Positions 3,985-27,285 of a stretch of 27,285 bases of DNA are shown here, piece by piece (position 1 is the first letter of the stretch; every line of letters begins with the position of its first letter). Source of the DNA: a virus; the IMG/VR virus record IMGVR_UViG_3300034062_000426, positions 1-27,285 of that record; one strand, given 5' to 3'. The translations under genes were made by a program, and so were the position numbers. The notes under the pieces were generated by a model that was given only the letters and a program-made list of their open reading frames with translations, was not told the origin of the DNA and did no database searches.

Positions 3985-4218
3985 ATGAAGGCACCGCAGA
4001 AATCCCTCAAAGACTGGGGCGACCAAAAATGGAGAACAAAAAGTGGTAAAAAATCTTCTGAAACAGGTGAGCGATACCTTCCAAGCGCTGCGATTAAAAG
4101 TCTCAGCCCTGCTGAGTACGCTGCAACGACCAAAGCCAAGCGAGCAGGAAAAGCCGCCGGGAAGCAATTCGTAGCTCAACCCAAAACGATTGCAAAGAAA
4201 ACAGCAGGATTTAGATAA
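3985..4218 (+). CDS. Small basic protein of the KSLKxWxxQKWRTKSGK family, 77 aa
   Basis: I take the ATG at 3985, one base past the upstream stop, giving MKAPQKSLKDWGDQKW; a GTG at 3964 would add seven residues inside the neighbour. The motif order is KSLKDWGDQKWRTKSGKKSS, then TGERYLPSAAIKSLSPAEYA, then an AKxAGKQFxxQPKxIAKKTA tail. This is a widespread family in aquatic phages, with look-alikes in large eukaryotic viruses as I recall. It often travels with the WSARKAQ domain directly upstream, as here. It is strongly basic with conserved Trp residues, so nucleic-acid binding is plausible but unproven. Its stop overlaps the next start (TAATG). Confidence 0.7.
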   Translation: MKAPQKSLKDWGDQKWRTKSGKKSSETGERYLPSAAIKSLSPAEYAATTKAKRAGKAAGKQFVAQPKTIAKKTAGFR

Positions 4219-5141
4219 TGGCAACCACCTCCGGCGTTTCCGCATTTAACCTTGACCTAACTGAACTGGTCGAGGAGGCGTTTGAACGCGCTGGTAGCGA
4301 GATGCGTACCGGCTATGACCTGCGAACTGCTCGCCGCAGTCTGAACATCATGTTTGCTGATTGGGCCAACCGTGGCATCAACATGTGGTCGATTGAGCCG
4401 GGGACCATCACTTTCGTGCAGGGGCAGAACACTTATGCACTGCCATCTGACACCATTGACCTGCTTGAGCACGTCATACGCACTGGTGGTAACGTAGCGT
4501 CTACACAGGCGGACTTGACCATCACCCGGATCAGCGTATCAACCTACGCCACGATCCCGAACAAAATCCAGCAGGCGCGGCCTATTCAGATTTGGATTCA
4601 GCGGTACAACGCACAGAGCTCGCCTACGGGCCTGACGCTGAACGGCACCATTACCTCTACGGCTACGACCATCACCCTCAGTTCGACTGTGGGCCTACCT
4701 GCTTCTGGCTTCATCAAAATTGACAACGAGACCATCAACTACAGTTACATCTCAGGGAATACTCTGGACAACTGCTTCCGCGCTCAGAATAACACCACCG
4801 CAGCCGCGCATACCACTGGCGCAGCCGTGTACTCGGAACAGTTGCCCGCCGTCACTGTCTGGCCAACGCCTGATGGCTCACAGACCTACACGCTGGCTTA
4901 CTGGCGTCTGCGCCGTACTCAGGATGCTGGCGGCGGTGTCAACGTCATGGACGTCCCGTTCCGGTTTGTGCCCTGCATGGCAGCGGGCTTGTCGTATTAC
5001 CTAGCGGGCAAGATTCCTTCAGGTTTTGAGCGCCTACCTATGCTCAAAGCCCAGTACGACGAGGCTTGGCAGAACGCCGCCGACGAGGATCGTGAAAAAG
5101 CTGCGGTGCGATTCGTGCCGCGCCAGATGTTTATAAACTGA
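4218..5141 (+). CDS. Head-to-tail adaptor-like protein, 307 aa
   Basis: The N-terminal 60 residues (ELVEEAFERAGSEMRTGYDL, then RTARRSLNIMFADWANRG) are helical and match a phage family I know as connector or tail-adaptor proteins of podoviruses, analogous to P22 gp4 and T7 gp11. Residues 62-130 start with the ITFVQGQNTYALPSDTIDL block typical of the family. Residues about 138-207 are an inserted beta module (TSTATTITLSSTVGLPASGF to AAAHTTGAAVY) that also occurs alone in other phage proteins. The helical C-terminus closes the adaptor. It would sit as a ring between portal and nozzle. A second adaptor-like gene lies at 5973. Confidence 0.75.
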   Translation: MATTSGVSAFNLDLTELVEEAFERAGSEMRTGYDLRTARRSLNIMFADWANRGINMWSIEPGTITFVQGQNTYALPSDTIDLLEHVIRTGGNVASTQADLTITRISVSTYATIPNKIQQARPIQIWIQRYNAQSSPTGLTLNGTITSTATTITLSSTVGLPASGFIKIDNETINYSYISGNTLDNCFRAQNNTTAAAHTTGAAVYSEQLPAVTVWPTPDGSQTYTLAYWRLRRTQDAGGGVNVMDVPFRFVPCMAAGLSYYLAGKIPSGFERLPMLKAQYDEAWQNAADEDREKAAVRFVPRQMFIN

Positions 5142-8644: not shown

Positions 8645-10849
8645 ATGGCACTCGTACTTGCAGATCGCGTAAAAGAAACCGCCACGACAACAGGCACCGG
8701 AACAGTAACGCTTCTTGGCGCAGTTACGGGGTTTCAGTCCTTCGCCGTGATTGGTGACGCTAACACGACTTATTACACAATTGCAGGACAGTCGAGTAAT
8801 GAGTGGGAAGTCGGGATTGGTACGTACACCTTGTCAGGCACAACCTTAGCCAGAACAACGGTGCTGTCAAACAGCGCAGGAACACAGCCTTCCGCGTTAA
8901 GTTTTTCAGCGGGCACAAAAGACGTATTTGTCACCTACCCCGCTGGGAAATCAGTCAACCTTGATGCGTCTGGAAATGCTACCGCTCTGGGAACTCCCGT
9001 CTCGGCCACTCTGACAAACGCCTCGGGTTTGCCAATTTCAACCGGCGTATCGGGTCTGGGAACCAATGTTGCAACTTTTCTGGCTACACCGTCTTCAGCC
9101 AATCTTGCTGCTGCGGTCACTGATGAGACCGGTACAGGCGCTCTTGTTTTTGCCACCAGCCCAACCTTGACCACTCCCGCTTTGGGTACGCCTTCCGCTC
9201 TGGTTGGAACAAACATTACAGGCACTGCTTCGGGCTTAACGGCTGGCAACGTAACAACCAACGCCAACTTGACAGGCGCTGTAACCTCTGTCGGTAACGC
9301 CACCTCTCTTGGCTCCTTTACATCGGCGCAACTTTTAGGTGCTCTTACGGACGAAACGGGCACGGGAGCAGCGGTATTTGCTACCAGCCCCACCTTGGTT
9401 ACCCCGGCACTTGGAACACCCTCCGCTCTGGTTGGCACTAATATTACTGGAACTGCGGCAGGACTCACTGCGGGCAACGTAACTACAAATGCCAACTTGA
9501 CTGGCGACGTGACTTCCGTTGGCAATGCAACAACCCTGACTAACGCGCCTGTTATTGCAAAAGTTTTGACAGGTTACGTATCTGGGGCCGGTACAGTAGC
9601 AGCTACGGACTCCATCTTGCAAGCTATCCAAAAGCTAAACGGAAATGATGCTACAAACGCCAATCTAACCGGTGCAGTTACTTCAGTTGGTAATGCAACA
9701 TCTCTCGGATCATTTACATCTGCTCAACTGCTGGGCGCACTTACTGACGAAACGGGCACAGGAGCAGCGGTATTTGCCACAAGCCCAACCTTGACCACTC
9801 CCGCGCTGGGCACGCCATCGGCGCTGGTTGGCACAAACATAACAGGCACCGCTTCGGGCTTAACCGCTGGTAATGTCACTACAAACGCCAATTTAACCGG
9901 AGATGTGACTTCGGTGGGTAACGCAACGAGTATTGCCGCAGGAGTAATTGTTAACGCAGACATTAACGCATCAGCCGCTATTGTTGATACAAAGCTGGCG
10001 ACAATTTCTACAGCTTTAAAAGTTAGCAACTCAGCGACGACAGCAACATCAGCAAACACCGCCAGCGCAATTGTTGCGCGTGATGCATCAGGAGACTTTA
10101 GTGCTGGAACAATTACAGCTTCTTTAACAGGCAACGCATCAACAGTTACAACTAACGCCAACTTAACCGGCGATGTAACCTCTGTTGGCAATGCAACAAG
10201 TATTGCTGCCGGTGTAATTGTCAATGCAGACATCAACGCGTCTGCTGGCATTGTGGACACCAAGCTGGCGACGATTTCTACGGCGTCAAAAGTTAGCAAC
10301 TCAGCGACTACAGCAACTAATGCGAACACCGCCAACGCAATTGTTGCGCGTGATGCAAGTGGAAACTTTACCGCAGGCACGATTACCGCCGCTTTGACGG
10401 GCAACGCATCTGGTTCAGCAGCTACGTTTACCAGCACGTCACAGAACTCGCAGTTTAATTCGGTTGGGGTTGGTACAGCCGCTTCCGGTACAGCAGGTGA
10501 GATTCGTGCAACCAACAACATCACGGCCTACTACTCAGATGATCGGTTCAAAACAAATCTTGGCAACATCCCTGATGCGCTGGCTAAAGTACTGACGCTC
10601 AACGGCTTCTATTACGAAGCCAACGAGCTTGCACAGTCTTTTGGTTACGAGAAGATTTTAGAAGTCGGTGTTTCCGCGCAGCAAGTCCAAGCAGTTCAGC
10701 CAGAGGTTGTGGCCCCGGCCCCAATCGACGAGAATTACTTAACTGTTCGCTACGAGCGCTTAGTTCCTCTGTTGATTGAGGCTATCAAAGAACTGAACGC
10801 CAAGGTCACCGCGCTAGAGCAAGTCGTGGCAAAATCAACGCAAGGATAA
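8645..10849 (+). CDS. Tail fibre with C-terminal S74 chaperone/peptidase domain, 734 aa
   Basis: Residues 1-105 form an N-terminal attachment domain (MALVLADRVKETATTTGTGT, then GTKDVFVTYPAGKS) that recurs in phage fibres and would anchor to the tail. Residues about 155-590 are modular Thr/Ala/Gly/Asn repeats, including a perfectly phased 90-residue tandem duplication. Residues about 625-734 are a peptidase S74 (intramolecular chaperone) domain: Ser631-Asp632 in YYSDDRFKTN, then ILEVGVSAQQVQAVQPE, then LTVRYERLVPLLIEAIKELN with a terminal helix. In this family the domain drives trimerisation and cuts itself off at the Ser-Asp site. The protein probably makes the receptor-binding fibre shaft. 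GGA precedes the start. Confidence 0.85.
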   Translation: MALVLADRVKETATTTGTGTVTLLGAVTGFQSFAVIGDANTTYYTIAGQSSNEWEVGIGTYTLSGTTLARTTVLSNSAGTQPSALSFSAGTKDVFVTYPAGKSVNLDASGNATALGTPVSATLTNASGLPISTGVSGLGTNVATFLATPSSANLAAAVTDETGTGALVFATSPTLTTPALGTPSALVGTNITGTASGLTAGNVTTNANLTGAVTSVGNATSLGSFTSAQLLGALTDETGTGAAVFATSPTLVTPALGTPSALVGTNITGTAAGLTAGNVTTNANLTGDVTSVGNATTLTNAPVIAKVLTGYVSGAGTVAATDSILQAIQKLNGNDATNANLTGAVTSVGNATSLGSFTSAQLLGALTDETGTGAAVFATSPTLTTPALGTPSALVGTNITGTASGLTAGNVTTNANLTGDVTSVGNATSIAAGVIVNADINASAAIVDTKLATISTALKVSNSATTATSANTASAIVARDASGDFSAGTITASLTGNASTVTTNANLTGDVTSVGNATSIAAGVIVNADINASAGIVDTKLATISTASKVSNSATTATNANTANAIVARDASGNFTAGTITAALTGNASGSAATFTSTSQNSQFNSVGVGTAASGTAGEIRATNNITAYYSDDRFKTNLGNIPDALAKVLTLNGFYYEANELAQSFGYEKILEVGVSAQQVQAVQPEVVAPAPIDENYLTVRYERLVPLLIEAIKELNAKVTALEQVVAKSTQG
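9119..9532 (+). repeat. Fibre module, two adjacent copies (76 and 62 codons)
   Basis: Copy A (9119-9346) and copy B (9347-9532) both read TDETGTGAxVFATSPTLxTP, then ALGTPSALVGTNITGTAxGL, then TAGNVTTNANLTGxVTSVGN. Copy A has 14 more residues (SLGSFTSAQLLGAL) linking it to copy B. DNA differs mainly at third positions. Confidence 0.85.
9743..9928 (+). repeat. Fibre module, third copy
   Basis: This is the third copy of the TDETGTG...SVGN module in the same gene, preceded by the same SLGSFTSAQLLGAL linker that ends copy A. A fourth, shorter copy lies in the next gene at 11356-11487. Confidence 0.85.
9878..10417 (+). repeat. 270-bp tandem duplication (2 x 90 codons) in the tail fibre
   Basis: The unit from 9878 to 10147 repeats from 10148 to 10417 in the same frame. 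Each unit runs TTNANLTGDVTSVGNATSIA, then AGVIVNADINASAxIVDTKL, to TAGTITAxLTGNAS-type ends, with only a few amino-acid differences. It is a simple in-frame duplication that lengthens the fibre shaft. Confidence 0.85.
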
Positions 10850-15399: not shown

Positions 15400-17331
15400 A
15401 TGCCTTTACAAAAACTTCAGCTTCGTCCCGGTATAAATCGAGAATCTACTACGCTCGCTAATGAGGGTACGTACTTTGAGATGGACAAAGTTCGTTTTCG
15501 TTCAGGCTATCCAGAAAAGATTGGCGGCTGGGTTTCCGACACTGGCACATCTAATGCTACGCTAGCGCCTCCTACAGGCTCGTTCTGGGGCGTTTGCCGG
15601 TCGCTGTGGAACTGGATCACGCTGTCTAGCTACAACCTGCTAGGAGTTGGCACGAACCTCAAGTTCTATATCCAAAACGGTAGCGGCGGTACTTTTTACG
15701 ACATCACTCCTATTCGCCTGACCACCACTGCCGGGGATGTAACCTTTGCTGCCACCAACGGCTCAACCACTTTGACAGTTACCGACGCCGCGCACGGAGC
15801 GCAGGCTGGAGACTTTGTTACATACAGCGGCGCAGTCACTCTTGGCGGGGTAATCACCGCTACCGTGCTCAATAAAGAGTATCAAGTAGTGTCCGTCACC
15901 AGCAATAACGTCTACACAATAACTTCTACCGTTGCGGCGAACGCTTCGGATGTCGGCAATGGCGGCAGCGCTACCGTCGGTACATACCAAATCACGACCG
16001 GCTCTGATGTTTACACAGTCAGCGTGGGCTGGGGCGCTGGCGGTTGGGGCGGTATCACCACGGGATATACAAGCACAGGTTGGGGCTCACCCGCTCCCGC
16101 TGGTGTTGGCCTTGGCACTCAGCTTCGTCTGTGGAGTCAGTCTAACTTTGGCGAGGATTTAATTTTTAACCCCCGTGGTGGTGGGCTGTATCTTTGGGAA
16201 ACCAACGTCAACCCAAACATTTTTGACCGAGGCGTGCTGCTTACCGCCGGGGATACTCCAGACATTTGCAATTTTGTTATGGTGTCAGATGCCTCACGGT
16301 TTGTAATCTGCTTCGGTGTAAACGACTACGGCTCTGCCGTACAGAACCCCATGTTGGTGCGCTGGTCAGACCAAGAAGACTACACCCAGTGGACACCCGC
16401 TGTTACCAATCAAGCGGGTAGTTATACGCTTAGCCACGGCTCTCAGATTATTTCCGGCTTGCAGGCACGGCAGGAGATTTTGGTCTGGACAGACTCCGCT
16501 ATTTACTCTATGCAGTACCTTGGCCCCCCGTATGTGTGGGGTTTTCAGCTGCTTGCGGATAATCTGTCGATTGTTGGCCCTAACGCAACGGCTACGGCTA
16601 GCAACGTCGTTTACTGGATGGGCGTGGACAAGTTCTATATGTACTCTGGACGGGTAGAAACCTTATATTGCCCACTTCGCCAGTATATTTACGGCAACAT
16701 TAATTTGTCTCAGGCGTTTCAGTTCTTTGCTGGCACAAATGAGGGATACAACGAAATCTGGTGGTACTACTGCTCAGCTGGCTCAACAACAGTTGATAGA
16801 TATGTGGTGTACAACTACCTAGAGAAAATCTGGTCTTACGGAACTTTAGCTCGTTCTGCGTGGCTGGATAGTCCTTTGCGCGTCCAACCTATGGCAACTA
16901 CCTACGGGGCCCAGCTTGTGTACCACGAGAGCGGCGTGGACGACGGCACGACTAACCCGCCTTCGGCTATTAGTTCATATATTCAGTCTGCTGACTTTAA
17001 TATTGGCGACGGGCACAACTACGGGTTTGTCTGGAGGATGGTTCCAGATATCACGTTTGACGGTTCGTACGTCAATAACCCGTCGGTGACCTTCACCATG
17101 CGGCCACGGCAGAACCCCGGCTCAAACTACAGCACTGCAGCAACCCCCGCAGTAACAAGTACGCAGAACTATCAGGGGCAGCGGAACTACGCGGTTCAGC
17201 AGTTCACAGAGATTATTTATACGCGAGTCCGTGGCAGGCAAATGGCGTTTAAGGTCAGTTCTGACGGGCTTGGCGTGCAGTGGCAGCTTGGCGTGCCGTC
17301 CATCGACGTGCGACCAGACGGAAGAAGGTAA
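15400..17331 (+). CDS. Tail nozzle/hub-like structural protein, 643 aa
   Basis: The N-terminus MPLQKLQLRPGINRESTTLA, then NEGTYFEMDKVRFRSGYPEK, is a well-populated phage family that I associate with nozzle or hub proteins of short-tailed phages (P22 gp10 / T7 gp12 class). Residues about 117-180 are an inserted beta module with AAHGAQAGDFV, related to the HGLxxGDRV modules at 810 and 1308. The rest is beta-rich with many Trp and Tyr, compatible with a beta-propeller: NFVMVSDASRFVICFGVNDY, LVRWSDQEDYTQWTP, GLQARQEILVWTDSAIYSM, NVVYWMGVDKFYMYSGRVET. The C-terminus ends near RGRQMAFKVSSDGLGVQWQL. It probably closes the tail tube below the adaptor. Confidence 0.65.
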   Translation: MPLQKLQLRPGINRESTTLANEGTYFEMDKVRFRSGYPEKIGGWVSDTGTSNATLAPPTGSFWGVCRSLWNWITLSSYNLLGVGTNLKFYIQNGSGGTFYDITPIRLTTTAGDVTFAATNGSTTLTVTDAAHGAQAGDFVTYSGAVTLGGVITATVLNKEYQVVSVTSNNVYTITSTVAANASDVGNGGSATVGTYQITTGSDVYTVSVGWGAGGWGGITTGYTSTGWGSPAPAGVGLGTQLRLWSQSNFGEDLIFNPRGGGLYLWETNVNPNIFDRGVLLTAGDTPDICNFVMVSDASRFVICFGVNDYGSAVQNPMLVRWSDQEDYTQWTPAVTNQAGSYTLSHGSQIISGLQARQEILVWTDSAIYSMQYLGPPYVWGFQLLADNLSIVGPNATATASNVVYWMGVDKFYMYSGRVETLYCPLRQYIYGNINLSQAFQFFAGTNEGYNEIWWYYCSAGSTTVDRYVVYNYLEKIWSYGTLARSAWLDSPLRVQPMATTYGAQLVYHESGVDDGTTNPPSAISSYIQSADFNIGDGHNYGFVWRMVPDITFDGSYVNNPSVTFTMRPRQNPGSNYSTAATPAVTSTQNYQGQRNYAVQQFTEIIYTRVRGRQMAFKVSSDGLGVQWQLGVPSIDVRPDGRR

Positions 17332-17658: not shown

Positions 17659-18054
17659 ATGGTAAACCCCCGTAGCGCCGCCCTGTCTATGGTGTATGAG
17701 TCTGTAAAGCACAGGCTTACAGTTGGGCTTGAGCAGTACGCTGAAGCTGTCAAAGACTGGGATGTCATACCGCTAGAGCAAGGTGGGCAGGTGATCGGTG
17801 GGGTCTTAGCAAAAGAAAACGAAATGCACGTAGGGTACGGGGTCAAACCCAAAGGGGCTGTACGGGCACACATGAGAGCGATTTTGGAGCCTATGATTGA
17901 CCGATACGGGTTCATCAAGACCAAAGTCAGCGTTGAAAATGTAAGCGGGCTGGAGTTTTGCTATCGTCTTGGGTTTACCAAGTACGCTGAGACTGACGGT
18001 CACGTATTGTTAAAGTGCAATAGGAGCGATTATGCTTATCGGAACAAAACATAG
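17659..18054 (+). CDS. GNAT-like acetyltransferase-fold protein, first copy, 131 aa
   Basis: The product shows the GNAT order: helix 1-30 (YESVKHRLTVGLEQYAEAVK), strands around QVIGGVLAKENEMHVGYGV, a central helix from KPKGAVRAHMRAILEPMIDR, and the typical C-terminal end VSVENVSGLEFCYRLGFTKY. The GLEFCYRLGF segment is the classic GNAT C-terminal motif. Acetyl-CoA binding is not certain: the usual RxxGxG loop reads KPKGAVRA. T7 gp13, an internal virion protein of short-tailed phages, has a GNAT fold, so a virion role next to the internal protein downstream is plausible. The start lacks a clear ribosome site, and the gene overlaps the next one by 23 bases. Confidence 0.65.
   Translation: MVNPRSAALSMVYESVKHRLTVGLEQYAEAVKDWDVIPLEQGGQVIGGVLAKENEMHVGYGVKPKGAVRAHMRAILEPMIDRYGFIKTKVSVENVSGLEFCYRLGFTKYAETDGHVLLKCNRSDYAYRNKT
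18022..18026 (+). promoter_or_regulatory. Ribosome binding site AGGAG inside the GNAT gene
   Basis: AGGAG stands five bases before the ATG at 18032, inside the 3' end of the upstream GNAT gene. It fixes the start of the next protein at the MLIGTK tag. Confidence 0.7.
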
Positions 18055-19633
18055 CGGCTACAGCAGAGCTAACATTCGGTTGTACTTTGACCCAGTGACG
18101 ATCATGGCAGCCGCCACCACTGCTGAGACCGCTGCAGCTGTAACCGCCGCCGAGATTGCCGCCGCCGAAGCTGCCGCCGTTGCCGCCGCCGAAGCTGCCG
18201 CTGCCACCGCCGCTGCTGAAGCTGCCGCTGCCACCGCTGCTACTGAAGCCGCCGCCACCGCCGCTAGCGCTGCAAACGCTGCTCCAGCTTTTAATCCTGC
18301 TGGCATTATGGAGATTGGCGGAACTACCGCGCCGGGCGCTACACCTCTTACGGCAGAGGCAGTTAACGCCGCCGCTACGCAAGCAGGTCAACCTACTGCG
18401 CAAGAAATTTATCGACAAGCTGCTAACGCCAGCATTAATCCGGGGATAGTCAGCGATGCGTCGTCTAATTTGGCAACGCAGGGTACGCAAATGTTGCCGC
18501 AACAATCATTTGATTTTTCAAGTGTAGATAAGCTTTACAACGATGCTCTATCTAAAGGCGCTGGCCCCGAAGCCATGTCTTTTGACTCATTTGGAAATCC
18601 AGTCCCTGTAAGCAGCCCCGCATATAGCTCGGCTGACCCTACTGGTCTTGCCCAAATGGCGCTTGATGCTAATGCAGCCCCGCCCCCTTCTTCGCTAATG
18701 AAGGGCCTAAATTCAGCTATGGATTGGGCAAAAGCAAACAAGTTTGAAACAGCAGTGGGCGCATTTACGGGCGCTAAAGCCCTCGGCCTGCTTGACCCAG
18801 ATGGACAAACTCCTGACGACAATTCATATGATGGGCCTTTGTCTAAGTACCGCCTGTCTCCTGACTTTAAAGGGAGCACTGCAACGCCTAACATTTACAA
18901 GCCAACGTACCCTACGTACGCAGCGGGCGGCATCATGAATGCGGGTCCTGTGCAGGCCATGTCTGATCAAAACAATGCGATGGGCTATCAGCAAGCTATG
19001 GCTGCTACAGGCGGACAAGTAGCTAACTTTGTTAAAGGCGGTAGAACCGGAAGCATGACTGATTCGCTGGACTACTACAAGAGCATGATGGACGGCAAAG
19101 CCCCTGCTGCACCTTCAGATCGGGCAGATGTAGGTATCTTCCGTGACTCAGACCCAGACACGATGTATCAAGACGCGTTGACTGCGGCTCAAATCCGCAA
19201 CGCTAAAGTTAATAAGCGCGCTAGCTTGTCAGTCCCTAGCATGAAGCGCCCAACTCCTATGGGTCGTATCAATCTAGCTGCGCCCGGTATTAAGAGTTCA
19301 GATAAAGAGGACGTAAAAGAAGCCGCTGCGGGGGGCATCATGGGAGCTAGTAGTCTTGGTGGCTACGCTGCTGGTGGCAGTCCTCGTTTGCTTAGAGGCC
19401 CCGGTGACGGCATGAGCGACAATATCCCTGCTGTGATTGGCAAGAAACAACCAGCGCGTCTGGCCGATGGCGAGTTCGTAGTCCCTGCTGATGTGGTGTC
19501 ACATCTGGGCAATGGCTCTACCGAGGCGGGGGCTAAGCGGCTTCACGAGATGATGAACAAGGTGCGCAGAGACCGCACTGGCAACTCTAAACAAGGTAAG
19601 CAGATCGTAGCCAGCAAGTACATGCCCAAATAA
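18032..19633 (+). CDS. Internal virion (ejection-type) protein, Ala-rich, 533 aa
   Basis: Residues 1-18 (MLIGTKHSGYSRANIRLY) are a tag shared with the protein at 20040. Residues 25-84 are almost purely Ala, Glu and Thr, a long helix encoded by GCC/GCT/GAA repeats. The middle is low-complexity with AAGGIMNAG, FVKGGRTGS and AAAGGIMGAS motifs. The C-terminus is a conserved phage block starting at residue 450: SPRLLRGPGDGMSDNIPAVI, then ARLADGEFVVPADVVSHLG, then an Arg/Lys-rich helix (RLHEMMNKVRRDRTG). I know the DGEFVxPADVV block from internal and tape-measure-like phage proteins. Lack of a defined enzyme and the position beside GNAT genes and a giant protein support an ejected internal protein. 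Confidence 0.65.
   Translation: MLIGTKHSGYSRANIRLYFDPVTIMAAATTAETAAAVTAAEIAAAEAAAVAAAEAAAATAAAEAAAATAATEAAATAASAANAAPAFNPAGIMEIGGTTAPGATPLTAEAVNAAATQAGQPTAQEIYRQAANASINPGIVSDASSNLATQGTQMLPQQSFDFSSVDKLYNDALSKGAGPEAMSFDSFGNPVPVSSPAYSSADPTGLAQMALDANAAPPPSSLMKGLNSAMDWAKANKFETAVGAFTGAKALGLLDPDGQTPDDNSYDGPLSKYRLSPDFKGSTATPNIYKPTYPTYAAGGIMNAGPVQAMSDQNNAMGYQQAMAATGGQVANFVKGGRTGSMTDSLDYYKSMMDGKAPAAPSDRADVGIFRDSDPDTMYQDALTAAQIRNAKVNKRASLSVPSMKRPTPMGRINLAAPGIKSSDKEDVKEAAAGGIMGASSLGGYAAGGSPRLLRGPGDGMSDNIPAVIGKKQPARLADGEFVVPADVVSHLGNGSTEAGAKRLHEMMNKVRRDRTGNSKQGKQIVASKYMPK
18104..18283 (+). repeat. GCC/GCT/GAA low-complexity tract encoding poly-Ala helix
   Basis: Sixty codons encode residues 25-84, nearly all Ala with spaced Glu and Thr. 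The unit GCCGCCGCCGAAGCTGCC and its variants recur several times. Such tracts change length readily by recombination. Confidence 0.8.
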
Positions 19634-19635
19634 AT

Positions 19636-20043
19636 ATGCCTCTTCGTCAAGTTCAACCAAGTCAACTACCGCAGGTGTGGGCCATCGCAGCGCCTTTATT
19701 GCAAAAAGCAATTGATCTTGACCCAGAAGTGATTACGATTGAGCAAGTTGAGTACGCAGTCCGCACTGGCCGTACTTTTTTGCTTGTGTGGGATGAGCCA
19801 GATGTCGGAATTACCGGCGCAGTGACCGTTGATTTTATTGATTACCCGCGTGAGCGCGTAGCCCATGTGAACTTGATGGGTGGAAAAAGCATCGTGAGAC
19901 AGCACGTTTTTGATGAGGCTAAAAACTGGATGCGGTCTTACGGAGCTACAAAAGCACAATGTTGGGCCAACGGTTCGTTGGTGCAGATGTACGAGAAGAT
20001 GGGACTGGAGAACACCCATCAAGTCATGAGGGTTAAATTATGA
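19636..20043 (+). CDS. GNAT-like protein, second copy, 135 aa
   Basis: The product has the GNAT layout: N-terminal helix (LPQVWAIAAPLLQKAIDLDP), a central strand pair (RTFLLVWDEPDVGITGAVTV, then RVAHVNLMGGKS), a helix (SIVRQHVFDEAKNWMRSYGA) and a C-terminal end with CWANGSLVQMYEKMGLENTH. YEKMGL corresponds to the GNAT C-terminal YxxxGF motif. It starts two bases after the upstream stop and overlaps the next gene by four bases (ATGA). It differs clearly from the GNAT at 17659, so these are not recent copies. T7 gp13 is a GNAT-fold internal virion protein, which fits this place. Enzyme activity is uncertain. Confidence 0.7.
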   Translation: MPLRQVQPSQLPQVWAIAAPLLQKAIDLDPEVITIEQVEYAVRTGRTFLLVWDEPDVGITGAVTVDFIDYPRERVAHVNLMGGKSIVRQHVFDEAKNWMRSYGATKAQCWANGSLVQMYEKMGLENTHQVMRVKL

Positions 20044-22679
20044 TTATCGGAACTAAGTTCAATGGCTACAGCCGTGATGGCGTGCGTCGTCTGTATATGG
20101 GCGGTGGCGGTGGCGCACCTACGCAAACTACTAGCACCAGCTACCAGACAAACATTCCTGAGTATGCAAGGCCATATGTAGATACGATGCTGGGCGCGAC
20201 CCAGAAGCAGTTGTTTGAAGGCACTCCTACCGAGGGCGGCGGATTTGACATAACTGGCTTCAAACCGTATCAGCCGTACAGCACCAACCCTAGTGACTAT
20301 GTTGCTGGTTTTAGCCCTATGCAGCAGCAGTCGCAGCAGACCATAGCTGGCCTGCAGGTCCCCGGACAGTATCAAGCTGCGGCTGATATTACCGGCGCTG
20401 GCATTATGGGCGCTGCCGATGTCGGCGCTCAAGCTCGTGCGTTCAATCCTATGGCGCAACAAGCCGCTGGCATGGGGCGGCAGTATCAGCAGATGGCTAC
20501 CGACCCTAACGCTATCTCGGCGTACATGTCTCCGTACATGCAGAACGTCGTTGACACGCAGCAGCGCGAAGCCGTTCGTCAGAGCGATATTCAGCGTACA
20601 GCCAACATGGGTCAAGCCACTCAACAGGGCGCGTTTGGTGGTGGTCGGCAAGCCATCATTGAGGCTGAGCGTCAGCGCAATCTGGGCACTCAACTTGGCA
20701 GCATCCAAGCTCAAGGCTCGCAGAACGCCTTTCAACAGGCTCAACAGGCTCAGCAGTACGGCGCAAATTTGGGCCTTCAAGGTCTACAGACTGGCGCTGG
20801 CATCTACGGTCAGGGTTTGACTGCGCAGCAGCAGGCAATTCAACAGGCTCTGGGTGGCGCTGGTCAATTGGCTGGGCTTGGTACTCAAGCGTTGGAAGCT
20901 CAAAAAGGTATTGCTGGTCTTCAAGGGCAGGTCGGCGCACAGCAGCAGTCGCTGGAGCAGCAGAAGATCAATCAGGCCATCCAAGACTATTCCAATGCAC
21001 AGCAGTACCCGCTTATGCAGTTGGGCACTATGTCCAATATGCTGCGTGGCCTGCCAATGCAAGCTCAGACTACCCAGCAATACGTTGCGGCTCCAAACGC
21101 GCTTACACAAGGTATCGGCATGGCCGGTGCTGGCGCGTCTCTTTACAACGCGTTCAACCCAACTACTGGCAAGGCTGCTGGCGGCGTAATCTCGATGGCT
21201 AAAGGCGGTATCGCCAGCGTGCCTCAGTACGACGTAGGCGGTGAAGTAGAGAGTGACCTTGAGAGCATGCCAACGGAAGCGCTTGCTAGAGAGGCTAAAG
21301 AATCTCCTAGCCCAATCATCCGTCAAAAGGCCCAGCGCATTCTGCGTGAGCGTCAGATGGAGCAAGCCCCGCAAGCACCGCAAGGCATTCAATATCAAGC
21401 GCCGCAAGCACCGCAAGGCATGGCTGGTGGCGGCATCATTGCTTTTGCTAAACCAACTGATGAAAATAATCAGAGTCTTGTTATGGACCCTGAAAAAGGC
21501 GAAGGCGATGCTACTGGACTCGACCCATTGGGAAGAACCATGGAGCAGCGTCTTGCAACGCCGCCTGCTGGTGGCATCATGGGCGCAGGGGCAACTCCGG
21601 CGGCTCCAACGGCTTCAACAGCGCCCGCTACTTATGTCCCTAAAGCCGGGATCGCTATGCAGAATGCGCCCGATATCCCTGAGTTTATGAAGGCTCAGCA
21701 TGCTGATTTAGTGTACGAGGCGAACAAATCTCTTGCCGATCGTATGGCCGAGAAAGAGGCAATGTACGCCGCCAGAGGCGTAGCAGGTGTGTCTGAAGGC
21801 CAGCAGATGCAACGCGCTGAAATGATGGCTCAAAAATCCAACATGGGTGAAGAAAGACAGCGTCAGATAAATTTACGTCTGGCAGAGTTTTTTGCGGAGT
21901 GGGGATCAACTCCCGGCCCTACACTTGTTGCTGGCATGAACGCTCTCAAGAAAGCCGTACCTAATTTTGTTGCTGACGAAAAAGAACAGAAGAAACTGCG
22001 TCGTGAGATTGACAAGTCTATTGCTGATCTGGACAACTCTATGCGCCTTGAGAAGCGCGGCGACATTGATAAAGCCGATGCCGAAAGACAAAAGGCTGCT
22101 GATAAATTAAAAGATGCGTACGGGAAGTATATTGAATACGACTCGCAGCGTAAGAGAGACGAGTCAGCGGCTAAAACGTCTGCGGCTAGCGATAAATCAA
22201 GGTCTGAATCGGCTAAATTTGTTGCCGGTAAGCAATATGATGCCACTGTTGAGGCCGCAAGATTGCGTAACATCTCAGACAAAGCTACAAGCGACGCAGC
22301 TAATAGACGCGCAGACGAAGCTGCGCGGAATAACTTCCAACGTCAAGCGCTTGAGACTAAACGAGCTGCCGAAAGGCTTGAGGCTGACATTGCCAAAGAA
22401 GCTAAAGATACGATGGAGTACACCACTGCCAAACGCATGGCATCTACCACTAAGATTACCCCAGAACAAAGAGCAAAAGCAGAAAAAACAATTAAAGATT
22501 ACGAAACAGGTTGGGCTACGCGGCGTCAAAATGCAAAGGATGATCAGGACCTTGCTAAAGAACAGCTTAGAGAGATTAATGAACGACTTGGATACGGCAA
22601 AAAGCCTAATAGTTCAGGTGGGGGTGGCGCTGCATCCAATCGTCCGCCCTTGAATGATCCAAGTTTGCAAAAACCATAA
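20040..22679 (+). CDS. Large internal virion (ejection-type) protein, Gln-rich, 879 aa
   Basis: Residues 1-19 (MIIGTKFNGYSRDGVRRLY) match the tag of the protein at 18032. Residues about 30-350 are Gln/Ala/Gly-rich (FSPMQQQSQQTIAGLQVPGQ, QREAVRQSDIQRTANMGQAT, repeated QQAQQ and GLQ patches) with few hydrophobic blocks. This is a family I know from aquatic phages as an internal or DNA-ejection protein. Residues about 380-540 carry AAGGVISMAKGGIASV, QAPQAPQG repeats, GMAGGGIIAFA and PAGGIMGAG. Residues about 560-850 are charged coiled coil. It probably leaves the capsid with the DNA and helps form the ejection channel. A zone of Gly-rich low complexity ends the chain. Confidence 0.7.
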   Translation: MIIGTKFNGYSRDGVRRLYMGGGGGAPTQTTSTSYQTNIPEYARPYVDTMLGATQKQLFEGTPTEGGGFDITGFKPYQPYSTNPSDYVAGFSPMQQQSQQTIAGLQVPGQYQAAADITGAGIMGAADVGAQARAFNPMAQQAAGMGRQYQQMATDPNAISAYMSPYMQNVVDTQQREAVRQSDIQRTANMGQATQQGAFGGGRQAIIEAERQRNLGTQLGSIQAQGSQNAFQQAQQAQQYGANLGLQGLQTGAGIYGQGLTAQQQAIQQALGGAGQLAGLGTQALEAQKGIAGLQGQVGAQQQSLEQQKINQAIQDYSNAQQYPLMQLGTMSNMLRGLPMQAQTTQQYVAAPNALTQGIGMAGAGASLYNAFNPTTGKAAGGVISMAKGGIASVPQYDVGGEVESDLESMPTEALAREAKESPSPIIRQKAQRILRERQMEQAPQAPQGIQYQAPQAPQGMAGGGIIAFAKPTDENNQSLVMDPEKGEGDATGLDPLGRTMEQRLATPPAGGIMGAGATPAAPTASTAPATYVPKAGIAMQNAPDIPEFMKAQHADLVYEANKSLADRMAEKEAMYAARGVAGVSEGQQMQRAEMMAQKSNMGEERQRQINLRLAEFFAEWGSTPGPTLVAGMNALKKAVPNFVADEKEQKKLRREIDKSIADLDNSMRLEKRGDIDKADAERQKAADKLKDAYGKYIEYDSQRKRDESAAKTSAASDKSRSESAKFVAGKQYDATVEAARLRNISDKATSDAANRRADEAARNNFQRQALETKRAAERLEADIAKEAKDTMEYTTAKRMASTTKITPEQRAKAEKTIKDYETGWATRRQNAKDDQDLAKEQLREINERLGYGKKPNSSGGGGAASNRPPLNDPSLQKP

Positions 22680-22688
22680 GGGATAGTC

Positions 22689-25600
22689 ATGGCGTTAGAT
22701 ATTGAAAAGGCGCGGGCGGCTGGCTACTCTGATGCTGAAATTGTTGATTTCTTGGGTCAAGGCTCAACCTTAGATATTGACAAAGCTAGGAAAGCTGGGT
22801 ACAAAGACTCGGAGTTAATCCAGCACTTTACCGCGCCTTCAACAGCTGCTCCAGCTGCTCCAGCTACGCCTGTTGCCCCTCCCCCCGCTCAAAAACAAGT
22901 AGCGGGGCCAGAAGAAGGCGACTTTATGCGCGGCTTGGGCAATTTGCCCGGTCAATTTCAAGAGACGTACGGCGGGGCTAAAACACTTGCCGGTGTACTG
23001 CTTAAAAATAAAGACCTTATCCAAGGCGGTCTTGAGTCGATGGAAGAAGGCAAATTTAAACAGACTAGCAAAGAGTCTGATTCGTTTACAGAGGCATGGA
23101 AAGCAGGCATCGGCACTGTACTTACCGATTGGCTGCCGTACCAAATAGGTTCCGGCGTTGGCAGTATTGCTGAGACTGGCGCATTTATGCTTATGGGCGC
23201 GGGCGTTGGCGCTGTTACGGGCGCTGGTGTTGGAGCTTTGCCCGGCGCTCTAGCTGGAGCAGTATCTAAGGCACTTGTAAAAGAAGGTATTAAAGAAGCC
23301 GCTGAAAAAATTGCCAAAGAAAGCGGCAAGGAAGCGGCGCAAAAATACGTTGAAGCTCAAGCCAAAAAAGTTCTTGTTAGCGCTGGCACAACTGCTGGTA
23401 TGGTGTCCCAAGCTGGTATGTCTGGCGCTGGTGAAGTTACTGGACGCGCAGTTGAAGAGGCTCAGAAAGCTGGCAAAACAGCCGAAGATATTGATCTTGG
23501 TCGTGTCGTGCCCGCTGCTATCGCTCATGGCGTTGCTGATTTTCTTATAAATAAAACCGGCATTAACGCGTTAAAAATTGGTGAGAAGGGTTTTAATAAT
23601 CTTGCGTTGGACATTGCTACCAGAATTGCGGTTACTGGAGCCAAACAAACCCCTGCTGAATTAATCCAAACTGCAGCGGAACGTTACGGCGCTAAGTTGT
23701 CGCTAGATGACGCAGAAGCTCTCAAAGAATATGTTGACACTGCAGCTGCTGCGTTTGGTATGTCTGTTGCCCCCGGCGGTGTCGGCGGTGCGCGTACTAA
23801 TCTGTCGCAAAAATTTGCTAGAGCGGCTAAAGAAGATACAACTCCAGAAGATCAATTACGCCTTGAAAGCACAAGCGCGGCTGGCATGGTTCAAGCGCCG
23901 CCTCCTCCGCCTAGCGCTGATTTAGTTGCGGGTCTTACGCCGTCAATGCTTGGCAATGTGTCGCTAGCTAAAGTTTCCTCTGATACGGCTGAAGCGCAAA
24001 CTAAAGTCAATGAGGAAGCCGCTCAAGTTCAACTTACTAAAGACCAAGTTGTCCAGAAGGCGCAAGACTACGTTGCGGGTATTGAGGCTGGCGGAAAAGT
24101 AGATAGAGATGAAGTTAACACATTAGTAAAAGAGTTGAATTTTGACCGGCCTAAAAACTGGGGCATTATGTCCAACGTGGCTAAGATAGGTCTTATTAAA
24201 CAACATCTTGCACAACAAGGAGCGCTAAGTGCAGCAACTACAGGAACTGACGCAGACGCAGTTGGAACAAGCATTGATGTGGCTGGAAAGTCCGCTACGG
24301 GAGCCGCTTCCATCGGAGCTGTCCCTCCTGTCGCAGGTGGAGTGGTTTCTCCTACGGCAATTGCTGAATCAGATACAGGTGGAAAAGGAATTCAGCCAGC
24401 TGCACTGACTCGTGGGTCTGTTACGCCTGACGCGCTTCGTGCGCTGTCAAATAAACAACTGAATACTGAACTAGCTAATACTAGTCTTAGCGATGCCGAA
24501 TACGGACTCATAAAAACAGAATTAACCCAACGTCAACAAGGAACCCCAAGTGGCACTACGACCTCTCAAGCCAAGCAAACAAAAGCGCAAGGACAAGCAC
24601 CAGCAACCGGAACAGCAGCAACGCCTAAGAAGCTAACAGACTTATCACCTGAAGGGCAAGCGGAAGTTGCCCGTCGCCAAGCTCTCATCGCGGAGATTGA
24701 GCGGGATGGCCGAGATGCCACCGAAGAAAAGAATTACCTTAATAAGTTTTTGGCTAAGCAAGGTGTTACAGGGACATTGCCTGCTCGAAGCGAGACTAAG
24801 AGCATTAAAAAAGATTTCTTAGAAGAGGGCGAACTGCCGTACGCAGTGGAAGGCGAAGAAACGACTGGCGTAGCGCAAGACCGAGAGCGCGTGCAAGCTT
24901 ACAAAGAGTCTTTGACTGACGAAAAGGGCAAGCCTAAAACCATTCCTGATTACGATATCAGCGAAGGCGATCAGCAACTGTACAACGAAATGCGGGATGA
25001 AGTAAATCCGCAGGTTAAAGCTGCTAACGAGACGCGTAAAGAACTTGCCGCTGCGTATGAGGCTGCTCTTGAAAAATACAATCAAGCGCCAGAAGATCAA
25101 GAAAATGCAGCGTTTGAAGCATTGAATGCCGCTGAAGATGCGCTGCAAGAACACGGGCCTACTCAGCGTGAACTGCCTGAGTACTCAAAGAAATTTGCTG
25201 CTGACTACAAAGACATTTATTTTGGCAACATCACCGCCGGTCCGCTGGTAGATGGCAAAAGGGCGTTTGGTAGTAGCAGGCGTGAACATCAAAAAGCCGC
25301 CGCTGCGCTGCTAGAGTATTTGCAAAAAACAGGCGGAAGCAACAAAGAAAAACTCACTGCTGAGCAACGCCGCGCCGTCAATCAATATGAAGAAGGCCGT
25401 AGCGACTACAGCAAAATCTTTGGCGTTGAATTCCCGAGCTGGTCCAAGCTAACTCAAGAACAGAAAAATATCTTCTTGGATAGCGTGCCTACTTTAGCTG
25501 GCGCACAGCAGACCATAGCCTTTGCAAAACTTGCAAATCAACTTGTCCAAGACAACAGCCAGCTGTCTGAAGGTGAAAAGCGCGAGAAGCAAAACACTAT

Positions 25601-27285
25601 TGACCGCCAAGAAGAGGTGCGCCGCAAGTCTGAAGAACAGCAAGAGCGCGACCGCAAGAACCGTGAAGATATTGATCGCACTAAAGGGTCTGGCAGCACT
25701 TTACCTCCCGCCGTCATTAAAATGGTTATGGACGGGAATTTGCGAGGTGTCCTAAAGTACATGAGCGAAGTTAAGTTAGGCATTAGTGCAACGCCTACTA
25801 AACGAATCATGAAGGTGGTGGCGCAGGCTCTTGACGCTATGAATCTTGACACCAAGATTGTAATCGTTGAATCCTCAAAGATTGACGGGGACTTAGCGCA
25901 GTACGACCCAGCTAATGACACCATCTATATATCTAGAGAAGGTCTGAGCAGCAACACTATATTGCATGAAATTGTCCATGCCGGTACGGTCAAGGTTATC
26001 AATGAGTATTTGTACGGCAACAGGGGCTCTTTGTCTCAGTCGCAGTTAAATGCTATCCGCCAGTTAGAACGAATCATGGAGGAGACTCGTGATTCACTTG
26101 CTACAGACCATCCCCAAGCGTACAAAAATCTGTTTGAATTTGTATCCTATGCGTTAACCAGCGATCAACTACAAAAAGATTTACACGAAGAATCCGCCGC
26201 TTCTGCTGGGGCAAGACAAATATCGCGGAAAATTTTTGGAGATACAAGCGAATCTGTAGGCACAAACTTACCTGAGAAAAAATCTCAGTGGTCTAAATTT
26301 AAATTGGCGGTTGCGGGCCTTCTTAAAGTACGTGATATCTATCTGACAAAGAGTGGGAACTTAAGCAAGGCGGTAGAACCCAATTTTGTGATGGAAATTG
26401 CAGCGGCGTTTGACGACATTATTTCCAAACCGACTGAGCCAATCTACCTTCCATTGCTGCCTGCTACAGCGCCTACTGGCGCGCCCGCGCCTTCAGCGCC
26501 TAAACCTATAGAGAAGCACAAAGCTGAGTTAGGCAAGCACAACTCTGCGTACGATCTTCCGCAAGAAGATGCGCCTATATCGGTAGCAACTAGGATTTAC
26601 CGTTCGTGGAACAACATCAACACTTGGAGAAACGCGGCGCGTTTATTTCAAGATGATCGCTACGCCATTAAAGCGCACGACAATATTTTATATATGTCTG
26701 GCAAACTTATCCGCGAGGGTAAGGACACAATGAACAACGTCTACGATCAGATTGTGACGGCTGTTGGTGACGGCAAAAACTTCTTTAACGCATTTGTTAG
26801 CGAACCCGCCAGAGAGCTTGACCGCGCTGTAAAAGAGTTTGCTGATGGTGCGGGGTTTAAAAAGGTCAAACAGGCAATTGAAGAACTGCATAAAATTCTT
26901 GAAGCGGTGCATGAGCCAGAGCGCCGCATGGTACGTTACCTGTTGTCCGTTCCGCTTAGCCTTAAAGCTTCGCTTATGCACAACGGCAAAATGATTAGCG
27001 CCGCCGCACGCCGCAGTGACATCCTTAAACTGTTGGATAACTACACCTTGACTCAAGCGCAAGCTAAGCAGCTGCGAGAAGAGTTGGAGACAATCGTCTT
27101 TGAGAAAGACGCCAATGGTAGCTTAGTGCTTGACACCGACGGCAACCCAAAACCAAATATGACGTTTGTGGACCCTGCTGGAGACACATACACGCCACGC
27201 AAACCAAAAGGCAAATTTCTTAAGCCTGACATCAAGTACGATTCGGACTCCTATACCGCAACTGGTATCAATTTAGCTGATGCTA
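22689..27285 (+). CDS. Giant zincin-bearing polyvalent/ejection protein, N-terminal 1532 residues (runs off the window)
   Basis: From ATG 22689, preceded by AAGGGAT, the frame is open to the right edge without a stop. Residues 2-21 and 28-47 are two copies of LDIxKARxAGYxDxE. Residues about 60-130 lead into a hydrophobic Gly-zipper region (about 157-200, GAGVGAVTGAGVGALPGALA) and a helical Ala-rich part with GRVVPAAIAHGVADFL. A long, low-complexity, charged middle follows. Around residue 1075 begins a metallopeptidase domain: DPANDTIYISREG, then HEIVHAG (His1093, Glu1094, His1097) and Glu1150 in LFEFVSYAL as likely third zinc ligand. The rest is helical (about 1300-1480). This matches zincin-containing polyvalent proteins of phages, here probably delivered with DNA. 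Further domains may lie beyond the window. Confidence 0.75.
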   Translation, partial: MALDIEKARAAGYSDAEIVDFLGQGSTLDIDKARKAGYKDSELIQHFTAPSTAAPAAPATPVAPPPAQKQVAGPEEGDFMRGLGNLPGQFQETYGGAKTLAGVLLKNKDLIQGGLESMEEGKFKQTSKESDSFTEAWKAGIGTVLTDWLPYQIGSGVGSIAETGAFMLMGAGVGAVTGAGVGALPGALAGAVSKALVKEGIKEAAEKIAKESGKEAAQKYVEAQAKKVLVSAGTTAGMVSQAGMSGAGEVTGRAVEEAQKAGKTAEDIDLGRVVPAAIAHGVADFLINKTGINALKIGEKGFNNLALDIATRIAVTGAKQTPAELIQTAAERYGAKLSLDDAEALKEYVDTAAAAFGMSVAPGGVGGARTNLSQKFARAAKEDTTPEDQLRLESTSAAGMVQAPPPPPSADLVAGLTPSMLGNVSLAKVSSDTAEAQTKVNEEAAQVQLTKDQVVQKAQDYVAGIEAGGKVDRDEVNTLVKELNFDRPKNWGIMSNVAKIGLIKQHLAQQGALSAATTGTDADAVGTSIDVAGKSATGAASIGAVPPVAGGVVSPTAIAESDTGGKGIQPAALTRGSVTPDALRALSNKQLNTELANTSLSDAEYGLIKTELTQRQQGTPSGTTTSQAKQTKAQGQAPATGTAATPKKLTDLSPEGQAEVARRQALIAEIERDGRDATEEKNYLNKFLAKQGVTGTLPARSETKSIKKDFLEEGELPYAVEGEETTGVAQDRERVQAYKESLTDEKGKPKTIPDYDISEGDQQLYNEMRDEVNPQVKAANETRKELAAAYEAALEKYNQAPEDQENAAFEALNAAEDALQEHGPTQRELPEYSKKFAADYKDIYFGNITAGPLVDGKRAFGSSRREHQKAAAALLEYLQKTGGSNKEKLTAEQRRAVNQYEEGRSDYSKIFGVEFPSWSKLTQEQKNIFLDSVPTLAGAQQTIAFAKLANQLVQDNSQLSEGEKREKQNTIDRQEEVRRKSEEQQERDRKNREDIDRTKGSGSTLPPAVIKMVMDGNLRGVLKYMSEVKLGISATPTKRIMKVVAQALDAMNLDTKIVIVESSKIDGDLAQYDPANDTIYISREGLSSNTILHEIVHAGTVKVINEYLYGNRGSLSQSQLNAIRQLERIMEETRDSLATDHPQAYKNLFEFVSYALTSDQLQKDLHEESAASAGARQISRKIFGDTSESVGTNLPEKKSQWSKFKLAVAGLLKVRDIYLTKSGNLSKAVEPNFVMEIAAAFDDIISKPTEPIYLPLLPATAPTGAPAPSAPKPIEKHKAELGKHNSAYDLPQEDAPISVATRIYRSWNNINTWRNAARLFQDDRYAIKAHDNILYMSGKLIREGKDTMNNVYDQIVTAVGDGKNFFNAFVSEPARELDRAVKEFADGAGFKKVKQAIEELHKILEAVHEPERRMVRYLLSVPLSLKASLMHNGKMISAAARRSDILKLLDNYTLTQAQAKQLREELETIVFEKDANGSLVLDTDGNPKPNMTFVDPAGDTYTPRKPKGKFLKPDIKYDSDSYTATGINLADA

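Follow-up and report, generated by a model that had tools for sequence, protein, structure and literature searches.

The window analysed here is a stretch of 27,285 bases that makes up a complete IMG/VR record. An open reading frame on its forward strand begins with an ATG and continues stop-free for 1,532 codons up to the window end (22689..27284); because the record is complete at 27,285 bases, the absence of a stop codon marks the end of the contig and is not a biological feature. A preliminary description of this DNA had noted a single frame that stays open from 22689 to the window edge for at least 1532 codons, and this is confirmed. A complete homolog (L002, 2,328 aa) is 77% identical in an alignment spanning all 1,532 window residues. 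A second complete homolog (L003) has 2,377 aa, and the complete environmental homologs range from 2,244 to 2,408 aa, so that about 800 C-terminal residues of the window protein are missing and its full length, judged from these relatives, should be near 2,340 residues. Substitutions between the window and L002 at codon positions 1, 2, and 3 number 262, 184, and 580, respectively, with a dN of 0.155, a dS of 0.866, and a dN/dS of about 0.18 (purifying selection), a pattern that identifies a real, constrained gene. The gene, its internal features and the genes preceding it are listed in Table 1.

Searches with the window protein itself were largely unproductive. Pfam and NCBIfam returned nothing usable for the window protein alone and PHROGs returned nothing, and tblastn of its 1,532 residues against 50,697 phages gave zero matches; isolate phages are reached only by the C-terminal part, which is known from the homologs. 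No relative was found among the bacterial and archaeal genome contigs searched, and hence no host is indicated.

Table 1. Coordinates of the giant gene, its internal features, and the virion genes that precede it (window positions).
Feature	Position	Strand	Remarks
643-aa virion structural / head-closure type protein	15400..17331	+	phrog_3287
533-aa Ala-rich protein	18032..19633	+	probably structural, by gene order only
Small GNAT-like protein	19636..20043	+	weak match, E 0.0032; a 135-aa gene lies here in most homologs
879-aa protein	20040..22679	+	candidate ejection protein, by gene order only
Gene of the giant polyvalent-type protein (putative ejection protein), 5' part	22689..27285	+	1,532 of an estimated ~2,340 codons; cut by record end
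N-terminal tag, copy 1	22695..22769	+	residues 3-27, LDIEKARAAGYSDAEIVDFLGQGST
N-terminal tag, copy 2	22770..22844	+	residues 28-52, LDIDKARKAGYKDSELIQHFTAPST
Pro/Ala-rich linker after tag	22833..22916	+	residues 49-76; apparent exchange junction
Module A	22917..23828	+	residues 77-380; replaced by unrelated module B in close relatives, e.g., L003
Glycine-zipper hydrophobic stretch	23184..23258	+	residues 166-190
Low-constraint linker region	23841..24623	+	residues ~385-645; dN/dS 0.66 over 400-640
Charged middle, predicted helical	24963..25682	+	residues 759-998
Zincin-like metallopeptidase domain	25710..26435	+	residues 1008-1249; related to N4 gp50 C1
HEIVH (HExxH) zinc-binding motif	25965..25979	+	residues 1093-1097; invariant in 15 sequences
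Glu1150 (EFVSYAL)	26136..26138	+	invariant in 15 sequences; probable third zinc ligand
Start of helical C-terminal module	26490..27284	+	first quarter of ~1,070 residues; LPD38 farther on, outside the window

Genome slot and upstream genes

In L002 and L003, the gene ends a rightward block of virion genes and is followed by leftward replication genes. The same slot, that of the last virion gene with genes on the opposite strand next, is occupied by JC1 gp69, a 3,066-aa Vibrio phage protein, N4 gp50, and P22 gp16, and in MinM2 by a 2,803-aa LPD38 protein annotated as RelA/SpoT. The preliminary description had placed the gene directly after two ejection-type proteins. Two large genes do lie just upstream, but neither the 533-aa nor the 879-aa product has a Pfam or PHROG match, so that the “ejection-type” label is one of gene order only. 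These upstream genes have no sequence similarity to JC1 gp68/gp64. The JC1 gp69 gene is, like that of the window, preceded by head-closure and N-acetyltransferase genes. Small GNAT-like genes occur in the virion operon of the window at 17659-18054 and 19636-20043, with a weak match for the latter only; most homologs have the 135-aa gene immediately upstream of the 879-aa gene, and acetyltransferases are annotated in a comparable position in JC1 and CRP-901. Elsewhere in the window, 8645-10849 encodes a tail fibre that ends in an intramolecular chaperone of the Peptidase_S74 family (C-terminal, E 2.6e-9).

Domains of the giant protein

Several elements of the internal layout had been named in the preliminary description, and each was checked. 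The Gly-zipper region is present, with hydrophobic residues at 166-184 and a GxxxG series at 170/174/178/182/186, and long helices are predicted, at modest confidence, for the charged middle. The peptidase domain is a zincin in which the HExxH motif and the downstream Glu are unchanged across homologs, and it matches N4 gp50 both by profile and by predicted fold. A preprint on the N4 structure assigns residues 2124-2375 of gp50, the virion RNA polymerase, to a C1 domain with HExxH and residues 2376-3500 to C2 (PMC12633501). The window zincin recovers this C1 region by hmmsearch (1e-6) and by profile-profile comparison (96%, E 3.7e-9), the latter covering the downstream motif (EFVSYALT/EFMAWGLAN), and a solved “internal virion protein” (9sfn_G) is matched over the same motif at E 3.6e-4. 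For the zincin half, the AlphaFold model is of low overall quality (pTM 0.29), and its structural alignment to N4 residues 2124-2350 (VIA-align Z 8.1, 166 residues) is at about the level of common arrangements; the sequence profile agrees nonetheless, and the comparisons together show that the zincin of the window protein is homologous to N4 gp50 C1. A structural match of the same region to anthrax lethal factor reflects the generic zincin fold only.

LPD38 is large polyvalent protein associated domain 38, of phage type. In the complete homologs, Pfam places it near residues 2,011-2,205 (E 2e-15, above cut-off), and 7/8 aligned members have it, all but the window protein, which is truncated and in which it would be expected at about residues 2,020-2,220. 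A model of the C-terminal ~1,070 residues reached a pTM of 0.58, and Foldseek comparison of this model with viral models gave alignments of ~1,000 residues at a TM of ~0.4, many of them to proteins named polyvalent, LT, or RelA/SpoT or bearing a methylase; at that TM, the matches suggest a shared chassis and not a close match. By hhalign, the module matches the C terminus of JC1 gp69 (98%, E 1e-14) and the 3,066-aa Vibrio phage protein (99.4%). Comparison of the model with solved structures produced generic helical matches only, N4 C2 not being among the matches listed, and the profile-profile probability of the module against N4 C2 is <1%.

A zincin-like MPTase domain is common but not obligatory in phage polyvalent proteins (Iyer et al. 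2017). The LPD domain of the homologs, the zincin-like MPTase, and the position of the gene among virion genes support membership of the window protein in this class, to which it is a new addition with an N4-type zincin. The earlier suggestion of a polyvalent architecture is thus upheld as regards class membership (LPD38, N4-type zincin) but finds no support as regards several effector domains on one chain: no second enzyme was recognised, zincin and LPD38 being the only domains found in the window protein and the complete homologs.

Among characterized proteins, JC1 gp69/Bcep22 gp75 (DarB-like) resembles the window family in the homology of its C-terminal ~600 residues, in LPD38 (at 4195-4401 in JC1 gp69), and in being the last virion gene, whereas JC1 gp69 is much longer (4,515 aa), carries transglycosylase, methylase, and helicase domains that the window family lacks, and has no significant N-terminal duplication. 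N4 gp50 shares the C1 zincin (HExxH and downstream Glu motif), a helical part of ~1,100 residues after it, and the slot; homology between the two helical parts was not detected, and the RNA polymerase domain is found in N4 only. P22 gp16 corresponds in slot, in its succession of N-terminal tag, linker, and body, and in the exchange of the tag among relatives, but has 609 aa, a body without sequence similarity, no zincin, and no LPD38; blastp of window-family members (e.g., L049, on the same contig as L002) against P22 gp16 gave no match. P1 DarB, likened here by description and not by sequence, is also a very large virion head protein counted as polyvalent with an N-terminal signal, but it has methylase/helicase domains, and its signal is experimental where that of the window protein is inferred.

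Exchange of N-terminal tags and adjoining modules

The tandem N-terminal repeats of the preliminary description were borne out by shuffling (p < 1/2000), and 0/24 control windows were as good. Fifteen homologs were gathered through parts of the protein other than the tag, and in 12 of them an N-terminal motif is doubled (p at most 1/2000 each), in six unrelated kinds: LDIEKARAAGYSDAEIVDFL, NFFDQFD, SPEEWLAQQ, NPDTGERFALVNNEW, DPNYVNANFATKQAIFNKY, and REFTGELVPL. The remaining three have just one copy of their tag, which is YPQYNDLSD..KFYSDIP or a variant, giving seven kinds, six of them doubled. The kind of the window occurs on 31 viral loci. In whole-record searches the AGYSD and NPDTG tags occur at most once per virus, and tblastn with these two against isolate phages found none; the YPQY tag is found in isolate phages at the N terminus of proteins of 927 to 3,912 aa.

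Behind the tag lies a second exchangeable module, either type A (FMRGLGNLPGQ..., with the Gly-zipper) or an unrelated type B (ADVPLKVGAGIVTGVRMIADAFGA...), and tag and module combine independently. L002 and L003 are 90% identical in the core and unlike in both tag and module 2; the tags of L033 and L034 are unrelated despite 80% identity in the core and 87% in module 2; L034 and L036 share the tag (96%) and core (85%) with 28% identity in module 2; and L012 and L032 agree in tag (88%) and core (61%) with module 2 unlike. Between the window protein and L033, the tag is 83% identical against 40% for the core. Placing the seven tag kinds on a maximum-likelihood tree built from the core takes 7 changes; for two kinds, well-supported branches demand a minimum of two each. 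Sequence comparison thus shows tags to have been exchanged among relatives whose cores are up to 90% identical.

The arrangement extends to smaller proteins. Three proteins with the FDQFD tag (L166, L169, and L182, from about 8001 onwards) are relatives of P22 gp16, with 51-52% identity from residue ~66-72 to the end; compared with L237:11484-13313, their N-terminal ~66 residues are replaced by MANFFDQFD...NFFDQFD, and the ~45 residues past the junction are nearly identical to P22, the N-terminal segment of P22 being unrelated. L164, a fourth FDQFD-tagged protein, has a match to the “DNA transfer protein” PHROG with an E of 4e-143.

Tag-only searches of viral contigs yielded 188 loci of five kinds, encoding 172 distinct proteins. 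In 177/183, a stop codon occurs no more than 30 codons upstream of the motif, which must therefore be N-terminal; of the six search peptides per tag, one began with Met, which favours N-terminal matches, and five did not. When 176 longer proteins, including two added family members carrying the other two tags, were clustered without their first 75 residues, they formed 40 clusters, the largest comprising 67 proteins with seven tag kinds, and three clusters had more than one kind; these counts are approximate, the clustering being single linkage. Domains of the tagged cargo include LPD38 with ddrB-ParB, with ADP-ribosyltransferase, or with LPD23, and FtsK-gamma/LPD39 accompanied by a weaker match to HATPase. 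Mid-sized tagged proteins (654-1,145 aa) are encoded by L209 (1315-3657), L105 (1991-3952), and L157 (8001-11435), and probably serve other phages as ejection proteins; Pfam recognises no domain in L105, PHROGs gave no named function for L209 and L157, and glycine-rich segments follow soon after the tag in L105 and L209. The last virion gene of Caulobacter phage GB2A (L020:25143-27311) encodes a transglycosylase protein with an imperfect doubled N-terminal motif, EAYRRGLL/EAVRRGLI (shuffle 11/500).

Mosaicism of ejection proteins in general is already known (PMC8954989). Exchangeable doubled tags receive no mention in the parts consulted of Iyer et al., the ejection-protein review, and the P1 and P22 papers, subscription literature having lain outside this search.

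Proposed packaging and ejection, and possible roles of the tags

The window gene is probably the final one in the virion operon of a phage with a short tail (podovirus-type), and its product would be a polyvalent ejection protein of ~2,340 residues. The distantly related LPD38 protein JC1 gp69 was recovered with 51 unique peptides from purified virions by mass spectrometry (PMC9144972), and this, together with the slot shared with P22 gp16, N4 gp50, and JC1 gp69, makes it well supported by analogy that the window protein, as the preliminary description had proposed, would be packaged in the virion and ejected. Such a protein would be made late and sorted into the procapsid, with the N-terminal tag as a candidate signal, and would exit with the DNA via the tail; the glycine-zipper segment may insert it in the envelope, the long helical C-terminal module with LPD38 may be a common delivery chassis, and the embedded zincin may cut its own chain or another protein of host or phage, whether ahead of delivery, in its course, or once it is complete. 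Packaging and ejection are inferred here, as are catalysis and the part played by the tag. The long helices and the place in the virion operon would also suit a protein of virion structure or assembly, akin to a tape measure or scaffold, that is not ejected and merely resembles polyvalent proteins, yet this is improbable given the zincin and LPD38 homology, the slot of P22 gp16, N4 gp50, and JC1 gp69, and neighbours and relatives indicative of short-tailed phages, in which a tape measure is not required. More improbable still is a virion RNA polymerase of N4 type whose polymerase domain was missed: the C1 zincin, the slot, and a C-terminal half of similar size recall gp50, but Pfam and PHROGs detect no polymerase domain in the window protein or the complete homologs, and a low-complexity linker and helices precede the zincin.

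For the tags, there is about an even chance that they constitute a modular N-terminal address on ejection proteins, short, in most cases doubled, and of seven or more unrelated kinds, which is swapped through recombination in the linker that follows, among the giant polyvalent proteins as well as among those of P22 gp16 type, and serves as a portable packaging or entry signal. The leading idea, compatible with the ejection reading though held tentatively and at somewhat less than even odds, is that the doubled tag is a capsid-targeting sequence, as in P1 DarB, with unrelated equivalent tags in each lineage. It leads because the N-terminal 30 residues of DarB suffice to package a reporter, which is not packaged without them (PMC9024508); in addition, the tags lie at the extreme N terminus of both giant polyvalent and P22 gp16-type DNA transfer proteins, and a P22 study implicates the scaffold in gp16 incorporation (PMC12005531). 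The P22-like L182 is nevertheless evidence against a scaffold or coat partner specific to the tag, since its tag is replaced while its scaffold (85% over residues 1-303), coat (73%), gp7 (95%), and gp10 (93%), as well as gp14, remain 73-95% identical to P22; nor is the upstream 879-aa protein supported as one, its C-terminal part not following the tag kind. Exchange of the tag without change in the capsid genes would instead suit a leader for entry, active once the protein has been ejected, for example on a host envelope or cytoplasmic factor, and exchanged because hosts differ. Such a leader would also accord with the conservation of a tag within its kind (dN 0.036) and with the linker and often glycine-rich segment behind the tags (in the giants, 60% of first blocks, compared with 12% of the others). 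It is the somewhat less likely of the two; against it, no host factor is known, and the glycine run exceeds shuffled expectation in only about one quarter of tagged proteins.

T4 internal proteins and P1 DarB have established N-terminal signals; to our knowledge, how the proteins loaded into the capsid and injected are chosen is unsettled for most phages. Should the tags not signal packaging, it would have to be explained otherwise why they are exchanged while the capsid background hardly changes. If they do form an exchangeable address, capsid loading would become testable by deletion and swap, and the tags would provide a sequence-based finder of injected proteins in unknown phages.
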